The translations under genes were made by a program, and so were the position numbers. From Candidatus Rokuibacteriota bacterium (GTDB lineage Bacteria; Methylomirabilota; Methylomirabilia; Rokubacteriales; CSP1-6), in NCBI GenBank assembly GCA_003220435.1, contig QHSL01000063.1:62001-126000 (forward strand): DNA of 64,000 bases, in the 5' to 3' direction. The notes under the pieces are model-generated. The model worked only from the letters and a program-made list of their open reading frames with translations. It had not been told where the DNA came from and ran no database searches. Of this stretch, positions 2,935-54,776 are shown piece after piece (within the stretch, counting starts at the first letter, position 1; every line of letters begins with the position of its first letter).

Positions 2935-3261
2935 TCATCAGCATCGGAATCAGCGCTGCGCGCGCACACCCGTCGAACCCGCGCGAGACCAGTGCCGTCA
3001 CGGCGTTTCGGTCGATCGCTCAGCCGGCCGCGGTACCGGCCGGCGTGGCGACGGTCCCCGGGGGTGGGGCCTGGCGGGGCGCGCAGACCCTGCCGTCGCG
3101 CAGGAGTGCACGGAGAGTGGCGATCTGAATCACGAGCCAGCGACCAGAGTGCAGGTCTGGTTTTCCCTCTATCGGATGTCGATGCCGGGATGCGTGGTGC
3201 CTTTTTATGTCAGGATTGCCGGCCGAGCGCAAGGGGGTCGCGTAACCCCGGCGAGTTCGGT

Positions 3262-4200
3262 ATGCTCCAGGACATGCTCGCGGCGCCGGGTTTCCATCAT
3301 CTGCACCTGAACTCCCTCGATCCCGACGCGGCTATCGCGTTCTACGTGCGTCACTTCCCGACGTCCACGAAGACGAGCTGGGGCGGGTTCCCGGCGCTCG
3401 CGGCCCCGAACAACGTCCTGGTCCTGTTCACGCGGGTGGCGACCGCGCCCCCGACGTCGCCGCAGACCGCGCTCTGGCACTTTGGCTGGCACGTCACCGA
3501 CACACGCGCGAGCCTGGAATCCTACAAGCGTCGGCCGGATCTCACGCTGCTGCCGCTCCACACGACCGACGAGGGCGGTGAAGTGTTCGTCAGCAGCGAT
3601 ACGTGGCCGAGCACGGGGCCCACGCCCGGCTTGACCAGAGCGCAGATCGCCGAGGCAAAAGCCAGCGGGGTCCAGCCGACGCGCAAAGGCGGCTTCGGCT
3701 ACATGCGCGGGCCCGACAATGCGCTGGTGGAATACGCGGGCAACCATCCGGCCGAGCGCTTCAACCACGTGCATATGTTCCAGGACGATCCGTTCTGCGC
3801 TCAGCTCTGGTACCAGACGCACCTGGACGCGCCGGTGTTCGCGGGGCGCACGCCCCGCACGCCGATGACCGAAGCCACTTGCCGAGTGGAGCGGGGAGCC
3901 GATCGCAGCTGGCCGGCGCTCGAGCGCGAGGGGATGTTCCGGTCGCCGTCAGCCGCGGTGGTGTTCGGGGACGTGGCGTTGCCCTGGTATATGCGTCAGG
4001 GCAACGCGCCGCTCGCAGGCAGCCGCGGTCACCTGTACGACCACATCGCGCTCAGCGTCACCGACCTCGACGGCTGGGTCGCCAAGCTCCGGGGCGAGGG
4101 CGTCCGGTTCCTCGAACAGCCCTACGCGCTCGGCGGCACGCGCGCCGTGATGATCGAAGGCCCGAGCCGCGAGGCGCTGGAGCTGGTCGAGGTCACGTAG
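3262..4200 (+). CDS. VOC/glyoxalase family protein with two VOC-like modules
   Basis: FHHLHLNSLDPDAAIAFYVRHFP...WHFGWHVTD...GPDNALVEYAGN...FNHVHMFQDDP...YDHIALSVTDLDGWVAKLRGEGV. Confidence 0.85.
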   Translation: MLQDMLAAPGFHHLHLNSLDPDAAIAFYVRHFPTSTKTSWGGFPALAAPNNVLVLFTRVATAPPTSPQTALWHFGWHVTDTRASLESYKRRPDLTLLPLHTTDEGGEVFVSSDTWPSTGPTPGLTRAQIAEAKASGVQPTRKGGFGYMRGPDNALVEYAGNHPAERFNHVHMFQDDPFCAQLWYQTHLDAPVFAGRTPRTPMTEATCRVERGADRSWPALEREGMFRSPSAAVVFGDVALPWYMRQGNAPLAGSRGHLYDHIALSVTDLDGWVAKLRGEGVRFLEQPYALGGTRAVMIEGPSREALELVEVT

Positions 4201-45999: not shown

Positions 46000-46047
46000 C
46001 GGCGCCGCAAGCCGTCGCGGGGCTGGGGCCCCGCCGGCTGAGGCGCC
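46000..46047 (-). repeat. Dispersed intergenic repeat, family 2, copy 2
   Basis: Minus strand GCGCCTCAGCCGGCGGGGCCCCAGCCCCGCGACGGCTTGCGGCGCCG; six transition differences from 22251-22297. Confidence 0.65.
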
Positions 46048-46095
46048 GCGACAAAATTTGGTGCACGGGAAGCTTCGGCTCCGGCGGCGTGACGG

Positions 46096-53204: not shown

Positions 53205-54776
53205 TCAGCTTGCGCCCCGCGCGCGCGTCAGCACTTCGTCGATTCCGCCAGTGAAGTAGAACGCGTCCTCCGGAATGCCGTCGTGCACACCATCGAGAAT
53301 GGCCGTGCAGGCGGCCAGCGTGTCCGCGCGTGACACGAAGGTGCCCGGCCGCTGGGTGTACGGCTCCGCGATGAAGAACGGCTGGGCGAGGAACCGGCGC
53401 AGCCGTCGCGCGCGCCCCACGGTCGCCCGCGCAGCCGCGTCGAGGTCCTGCCGGCCCTCGAGGGCGTCGGCCTCGGCGAGACATCTCCTGACGCGCTCGG
53501 CCACGGTCGCGGGCGTCTCGCCGACCACTTCGGGCATGAGCCAGCGCGATCGCGATGCCACCGGATCGATGGCCGGCCAGATGTGCGCGGCCGCGATGGC
53601 GCGCGACATCGTGATGACCGTGTCGAACGCCTCGCGATGCTCCGGGTGGTCGGCGACGAAGAAGAACGTCTGGATCCCGCCGAGCCCGAGCGTGAAGCCC
53701 TCGTCGCGGACGTTCCGGAGGTCCTCGATGCGCGCGCCGGGAACGAACGTGAACAGGGAGAGCTCCGACGTGGCCAGACGCCGGACGAGCTCCTCCAGGA
53801 GCACGGTGGTGCCCACCCGCTCTCCGCCGAGCAGCGCGACCACGCCGCCGCGGACGATCGGCAGCAGGAGGTCGATCACCTTGATGCCGGTTTCGAGGAG
53901 CGTGGGGCGGCCGGCCGGCGTGGGCGGCACGAGCCGGTCGAGCGCCGAGCGCATCAGCGGCTCGCCGAGCGGCGCGTTCATCGGCTCGCCGCGCTCGGCG
54001 ATCTGCATCCCCGGCGTCAGCTCGGCCGCCGCGTCACGCGCGATCGCGCGCACCCGCCCGTCGGGGAGGTGCTGCACGACCTGGACCGTGACGGCGCGGC
54101 CGGCCTCGTCGGCGGCGATCAGGGTGCTGAACAGCTCCGGCGGGCCCGCCGGCTCGAAGCGTGCCTCGATCAGCGGGCCCTCGGCACGCACGATTCGGCC
54201 GATCCGCGCGGGGAAGTCTTCGGGCAGCGGGCGGTCGCTCAGCGCGTCCTTCATGATGACGAGGATCCTCCTCTTGAGCCGTCGGCGAGCGGCGTGCAGG
54301 CGGTTGTTCACGGTGGTCGCGGGCAGATCGAGGAACGCCGCGATCTGCGCCTGCGAGCACTCGTGGACCCAGCGCAGCACGGCGGGCTCGCGGAGGCCGT
54401 CGGGAAGGTCGGCGAGCGCGGCCAGCGCCACGAGGCGACGACGGCCGGCGTCCATTCGCTGGTCGGCCGACGGGCCGTCGCCCGGAAGGTGCTCGGCCTC
54501 CGCCAGCGACTCGAGGCGCCGTGCGCGAAGCGCGTGGAGCGCCTGCCGCCGCACGATGCCGCGCAGCCACGCCGGGAAGGCCATGGCGTCGAGCAGACGC
54601 GGGAGGCCGCGCCACGCGGCCACGAACGCCTCCTGCACCACGTCCTTGGCGACGTCGACGTCGTGCACGAGCGCCATGGCCGAGCCGTGGGCGAGACGCT
54701 GGTAGCGCTGGACCAGCTCCGTGAAGCTGTCCACGTCGCCGCCGCGCGCCCGCTCCACCAGGGTCACCAGGTCCAT
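53205..54776 (-). CDS. ECF-like sigma70 factor fused to degenerate F1-ATPase beta-subunit-like domain
   Basis: N-term region 2 YQRLAHGSAMALVHDVDVAKDVVQEAFVAAWRGLPRLL and region 4 LPDGLREPAVLRWVHECSQAQIAAFLDLPATTVNNRLHAARRRLKRR; C-term ARIGRIVRAEGPLIEARFEPAG...LLETGIKVIDLLLPIVRGGVVALLGGERVGTTVLLEELVRRLA...AIAAAHIWPAIDPVASRSR...RARRLRRFLAQPFFIAEPYTQRPGTFVSRADTLAACTAILDGVHDGIPEDAFYFTGGIDEVL (AtpD-like). Confidence 0.9.
   Translation of the reverse strand: MDLVTLVERARGGDVDSFTELVQRYQRLAHGSAMALVHDVDVAKDVVQEAFVAAWRGLPRLLDAMAFPAWLRGIVRRQALHALRARRLESLAEAEHLPGDGPSADQRMDAGRRRLVALAALADLPDGLREPAVLRWVHECSQAQIAAFLDLPATTVNNRLHAARRRLKRRILVIMKDALSDRPLPEDFPARIGRIVRAEGPLIEARFEPAGPPELFSTLIAADEAGRAVTVQVVQHLPDGRVRAIARDAAAELTPGMQIAERGEPMNAPLGEPLMRSALDRLVPPTPAGRPTLLETGIKVIDLLLPIVRGGVVALLGGERVGTTVLLEELVRRLATSELSLFTFVPGARIEDLRNVRDEGFTLGLGGIQTFFFVADHPEHREAFDTVITMSRAIAAAHIWPAIDPVASRSRWLMPEVVGETPATVAERVRRCLAEADALEGRQDLDAAARATVGRARRLRRFLAQPFFIAEPYTQRPGTFVSRADTLAACTAILDGVHDGIPEDAFYFTGGIDEVLTRARGAS

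Follow-up and report, generated by a model that had tools for sequence, protein, structure and literature searches.

What would a piece of F1-ATPase beta that has lost its catalytic motifs be kept for when it is joined to a sigma factor? The question is raised by one gene in the window, the whole stretch of 64,000 nucleotides of DNA analysed here. The gene starts with an ATG at position 54776 of the minus strand and encodes an ECF sigma factor (residues 1-175) and an F1-ATPase beta-like module (residues about 190-520) in the same protein (Table 1). Three Pfam families matched the protein above the cut-off: Sigma70_r2, Sigma70_r4_2 and ATP-synt_ab. The N-terminal part includes sigma regions 2 and 4 (PF04542 and PF08281) without region 1 or 3, as is characteristic of ECF sigma factors, and also the match to the sigma70-ECF superfamily TIGR02937 was above the cut-off. 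The module matched the F1-beta family TIGR01039 in three separate stretches (E 2e-56), with 191.6 bits against an equivalog cut-off of 462.85, and a sequence search of the PDB matched it to F1-beta chains, the best at E 3e-49. The sequences flanking the lost motifs are thus F1-beta-like, as had been stated in a preliminary description made from the sequence alone.

Table 1. Features of the fusion gene and of the region upstream of it, with positions in the window.
Feature	Position	Strand	Basis or remark
CDS, 523 aa, ECF sigma factor with in-frame F1-beta-like pseudo-ATPase module	53205..54776	minus	single open frame; Pfam; layout shared by 11 other genes
Sigma region 2, residues 21-87	54516..54716	minus	PF04542 E 4.5e-13
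Sigma region 4 helix-turn-helix, residues 118-167	54276..54425	minus	PF08281 E 3.6e-8
F1-beta N-terminal beta-barrel, residues 194-265	53982..54197	minus	six modelled strands; weak PF02874 match; window/L118 dN/dS 0.076
ETGIKVID, RecA core entry; TGIK and Asp invariant in aligned members	53871..53894	minus	
Degenerate Walker A GGERVGTT, residues 317-324	53805..53828	minus	per-sequence table, 12 genes
Shared-deletion junction FTFVPGAR...GGIQTFFF, in place of catalytic Glu, arginine and Walker B (~90 residues gone)	53658..53753	minus	
HIWPAIDP, equivalent of the F1-beta Tyr345 segment; Trp here, Tyr in 9/12 members	53562..53585	minus	
QPFFIAEPYT, counterpart of the Phe418/Ala421/Phe424 segment of the adenine pocket; Tyr for Phe424 in 11/11 readable members	53355..53384	minus	
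Promoter-like AAAG-N16-GGCAC, 5' of the start codon	54803..54827	minus	same place in 12/12 fusion genes

When the module was compared with the genome's own AtpD (locus L002), about 90 residues were found to be gone between SxFxxxx and (V/I)QT. Further gaps include about 30 residues before TGIKVID, and the DELSEED motif is lost. The Walker B stretch, reported as missing in the preliminary description, is indeed absent, the region being represented by about 28 residues versus about 119 in the genome's own AtpD. The segment from the catalytic Glu to Walker B, with the Walker B Asp, is deleted in all 12 fusion genes read. Where Walker A has the pattern GGxGxGKT, the window protein reads GGERVGTT, confirming the change of the P-loop Lys to Thr that had been noted earlier; the motif had been recognized correctly, with coordinates one base off those given in Table 1. 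A change of GER to GAR at the catalytic Glu had also been claimed, and this part of the description was not upheld. The position reads PGVR, PWTP, PPGT, PGGG, PPGP, TGP or APD in the other members; it is therefore not a conserved Glu-to-Ala change, and the motif is simply gone. A point loss from GER to GAR is ruled out, as the loop differs between lineages. No equivalent of the catalytic Glu was found in any of the alignments made.

At the position of the P-loop Lys, the 12 genes include nine with Thr, one with Val and two with Lys, and both P-loop Gly residues are kept in all of them. The Lys is kept by two distant genes with the motifs GPAGAGKL and GDPRVGKL, both of which have Leu at the Mg-binding Thr position. 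Loss of the Lys is limited to the window's family and the large deletion is common to the whole set; because the two distant members keep the Lys, its loss is probably later than the deletion. Altogether, the nucleotide-site equivalents of Lys162 (in 10/12), Glu188, Arg189, Asp256 and Arg260 are lost. Hydrolysis of ATP in the F1 manner should be impossible in the members read, because the catalytic Glu, the adjoining arginine and Walker B are deleted, and the fusion modules would, judging by these sequences, have lost catalysis.

The 12 genes are that of the window, nine others in its family and two from a second phylum, that of a Thermomicrobiales genome. G061 has a further, partial gene at a contig end, which is not part of the set. 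Within the window's family, profile searches detected the fusion in 10 of 57 genomes, including that of the window itself; it was found in none of 38 other genomes of the window's phylum. One genome, G003, holds two copies. The locus L118 is syntenic with the window and its fusion protein is 89% identical. The two relatives in the phylum of the Thermomicrobiales genome differ in extent: L178 (G532) is of full length, with 38% identity over the whole protein, and L181 (G1226) is a protein of 463 aa in which the beta-barrel is missing and the RecA remnant and the C-terminal part are kept. L181 was listed only when the profile was augmented with L178 and a larger draw of genomes was used. With a profile of the window's family only, by which distant forms may be missed, the fusion was found in none of 396 genomes in the phylum of an Acidobacteria locus, 398 in that of a Betaproteobacteria locus and five in that of a Myxococcota locus. 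The matches in one genome contig scan look like plain AtpD genes, and the top matches of a plasmid search were AtpD only. No conserved neighbours were common to the fusion lineages compared, and no conserved adjacent anti-sigma gene was found beside the fusion genes.

Some of these loci show irregularities of their own. In L119 the homology ends after residue 404, L125 has a frameshift near residue 58, and in L126 the sigma part is internally deleted while the promoter element is kept; each may reflect either decay or an assembly error. A stretch of about 60 bases at 46002-46067 of the window recurs in L124 (in tandem, 3149-3327) and in L120 (13844-13895) with 81-92% identity, and is a dispersed short repeat of the window's group.

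In a tree with 60 AtpD sequences, eight F1 parts of the fusions formed one clade (support 100), which is consistent with the fusion having arisen once and then spread vertically or laterally. The N-type F1 beta TIGR03305 was the second-best family for the module (E 9e-46) and was joined to the fusions in the tree (support 86, not starred); its catalytic motifs are intact, unlike those of the fusion. The genome's own canonical AtpD was not rejected as the donor (p-AU 0.338). Some genomes of the window's class have a divergent AtpD; these sequences, at L017, L023, L031 and L032 (G011, G025, G042 and G041, respectively), formed a clade of their own, separate from the phylum's canonical AtpD.

Selection on the module was estimated from two pairs of fusion genes. 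Between the window and L118, dN/dS was 0.203 overall and 0.253 in the F1 part (95% bootstrap 0.169-0.376); between L122 and L124 the values were 0.185 and 0.136 (0.092-0.197), respectively. In the former pair the beta-barrel had the lowest value of the protein, and the values of the F1 part fall within those of the neighbouring genes (0.07-0.27). In the latter, the RecA remnant reached 0.048 (0.016-0.102). The C-terminal part (0.365) is the least constrained in the window's own lineage. The module is under ordinary purifying selection and is not decaying. The preliminary description had read it as a pseudoenzyme and not as a product of random decay, to be recognized by low dN/dS and by a P-loop ending in GTT and a Walker B gap shared among relatives. 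The low dN/dS was found in both pairs and the gap in 12/12 genes; the GTT is not shared, since the two distant members keep the Lys. Random decay is rejected because the gap is common to 12 genes in two phyla and dN/dS of the F1 part is low. The module is a selected pseudo-ATPase, joined to a sigma factor in members of two phyla.

An AF2 model of the F1 module, obtained with 38 AtpD rows added, had a pLDDT of 82.9 and a pTM of 0.76. Its best structural matches were F1-beta chains, which aligned over about 290 residues (VIA Z 25-27) with 32-37% identity at the structurally aligned positions, and the F1-beta fold is kept in the predicted structure. Of the RecA core, the model retains only the P-loop strand, the strand after it and the QTFFF and VITM strands; the loop at module residues 169-182, where the deletion junction lies, was poorly predicted. 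The geometry between the domains of the module is unreadable from the model because of an rmsd of about 10 Å, arising from either domain movement or misplacement. A model of the full protein, based on ten fusion sequences only, did not resolve the RecA remnant (pLDDT 60) and included no usable F1 core, and the modelling gives no view of contacts between the module and the sigma domains.

At the site of Ala421, which we take to be a position of the F1-beta adenine pocket, Ala is present in 10/11 members. The adenine site of F1-beta is lined by Tyr345, Phe418 and Phe424 (PMC5608556), and the equivalent residues are Tyr or Trp in 11/12 members, Phe in 10/11 and Tyr in 11/11, respectively. Since the chemical class is kept anyway in 64 of the 126 conserved, alignable AtpD columns, the retention of four pocket positions out of four lies only slightly over this baseline and is weak evidence. 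It is possible that nucleotide is sensed through the surviving aromatic residues. The loss of the phosphate-binding Lys in 10/12 members argues against tight binding of ATP and, in the window's family, makes F1-style binding of ATP seem less likely than that of a nucleoside or of a nucleotide held in another manner. F1-alpha provides a natural precedent for an F1 fold that binds nucleotide while being catalytically silent; it keeps the P-loop Lys, and the sequence of the fusion module is beta-like.

The AAAG-N16-GGCAC element is situated just 5' of the start codon in all 12 fusion genes in both phyla, with unconserved spacers. In most genes it is followed by a purine-rich stretch, a candidate ribosome-binding site; in L181 the element directly abuts the likely start. 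The pattern was matched six times in 1.01 Mb of other loci, both strands included, which corresponds to a chance rate of about 4 in 10,000 per 120-base upstream region. The spacers of the window and L118 diverge throughout despite the 89% identity of the proteins, and among the lineages compared the element is common to both phyla while no adjoining gene is. Its layout suggests an ECF -35/-10 promoter, a type that is usually autoregulated, and autoregulation would be the simplest reading. A scan of 1.74 Mb (32%) of the genome gave no convincing copy besides that of the fusion gene itself, and matches with spacing 16 were no commoner than those with other spacings. As only the gene's own upstream region has the full pattern at this spacing in the sequence scanned, there may be very few target genes, or the targets may be located in the rest of the genome or have looser sites. 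In G003 (contig C157), a second good element, AAAG-N16-GGCACTTA, was observed at L124:5032 on the plus strand, directly 5' of a short ORF (MDPAASTIRRILRGLIGLALAS...) that has a hydrophobic segment at its N terminus and adjoins an apparently broken methyltransferase gene; this ORF is a possible target of the sigma factor.

We consider it probable that the gene encodes an autoregulated ECF sigma factor whose regulatory domain, acting in cis, derives from a dead F1-beta. The sigma factor would transcribe its own gene, and its built-in domain, derived from F1-ATPase beta and retaining the beta-barrel, the P-loop glycines, the adenine-side aromatics and the C-terminal helical domain, would most likely act in cis. 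A small ligand or a partner protein, once bound, could then alter the presentation of sigma regions 2 and 4 to RNA polymerase; an adenine nucleotide or nucleoside is a plausible, if speculative, ligand. Regulation in cis is the most likely mode because no conserved anti-sigma neighbour is present and, according to a review (PMC8999054), ECF sigma factors that lack an anti-sigma gene can be controlled in cis by a C-terminal extension. A more specific form of this, that a captured catalytic subunit of ATP synthase, stripped of hydrolysis and with its adenine pocket kept, is an on-board energy-state sensor switching transcription initiation, is put forward only tentatively and is rather doubtful as it stands.

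The explanation that the element is recognized by another sigma factor or by a DNA-binding regulator gains from the fact that autoregulation is deduced from position and conservation, and that the third of the genome that was scanned yielded no other convincing site; it is nevertheless unlikely, as two short blocks 16 bases apart near the start codon have been retained with the gene across two phyla, persisting in an ECF-like promoter layout while the spacer and the neighbours change. For the module, the main rival is a protein-contact domain mimicking beta and docking on F1 subunits, for example unassembled alpha, or on some other partner, so that the sigma factor would report the assembly of ATP synthase or be held on it. 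The F1-beta fold is kept, and the beta-barrel, which packs against alpha in F1, has the lowest dN/dS in the window/L118 pair, but the gamma-contact motif DELSEED is lost, the distant L181 has no beta-barrel yet keeps the RecA remnant and the C-terminal part, and the fusion genes share no neighbours; we regard docking as improbable. A view of the module as decaying baggage carried by a functional sigma factor might be drawn from the missing catalytic residues and from the 3/12 genes that look damaged (L119, L125 and L126). Part of that damage may be assembly error, however, both testable pairs show purifying selection with upper bootstrap bounds of 0.376 and 0.197, and the same trimmed form has been kept across two phyla at 38% full-length identity, which makes baggage a very remote prospect. 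Hydrolysis of nucleotide by a changed mechanism is equally hard to credit: two distant members do keep the Walker A Lys, but they have Leu at the Mg-binding Thr position, and Walker B and the catalytic Glu are missing in all members.

Compared with known ECF sigma factors with regulatory extensions, the fusion is alike in its long C-terminal domain behind sigma regions 2 and 4 and, by the account in PMC8999054, in having no conserved adjacent anti-sigma gene. It differs in that the extension, of about 330 residues, is a derivative of F1-ATPase beta; the C-terminal SnoaL, TPR or Cys-rich metal-binding domains of ECF41, ECF42 and ECF238 were not found in it by Pfam. By analogy, the F1 module may act in cis as the SnoaL extension of ECF41 and the metal-binding extension of CorE do. 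No F1-beta-type ECF extension was found in the open full texts of two reviews (PMC8103513, PMC8999054), although an earlier mention may exist elsewhere, for example in tables of the ECF reclassification. With AtpD (TIGR01039) the module has in common the beta-barrel, the RecA-like core entry, the C-terminal helical domain and the adenine-side aromatics. The window fusion differs from AtpD in being joined to a sigma factor, in being about 120-130 residues shorter in the module and in lacking the Walker A Lys, the catalytic Glu, Walker B and DELSEED.

These features suggest that part of the energy machinery has been recruited as an integral sensor or regulator of transcription. Were the domain to sense nucleotide, a single protein would link the energy state of the cell to transcription initiation. 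The graded series of pseudo-ATPases, with the Lys kept, the Lys lost and the beta-barrel lost, offers a model of how an enzyme fold becomes a regulator, and the AAAG-N16-GGCAC element is a concrete, testable promoter element.

Another widespread ECF group in the window's family has a C-terminal hydrophobic, probably transmembrane, segment and a conserved domain of about 130 residues (FGTRVVLASD...LPKLRQLFRYKEYTSLERYRAEV...), which is apparently another sigma extension. It was observed at loci L155, L157-L160, L162-L167, L169-L171 and L173-L175, and in the window's own genome at L003.
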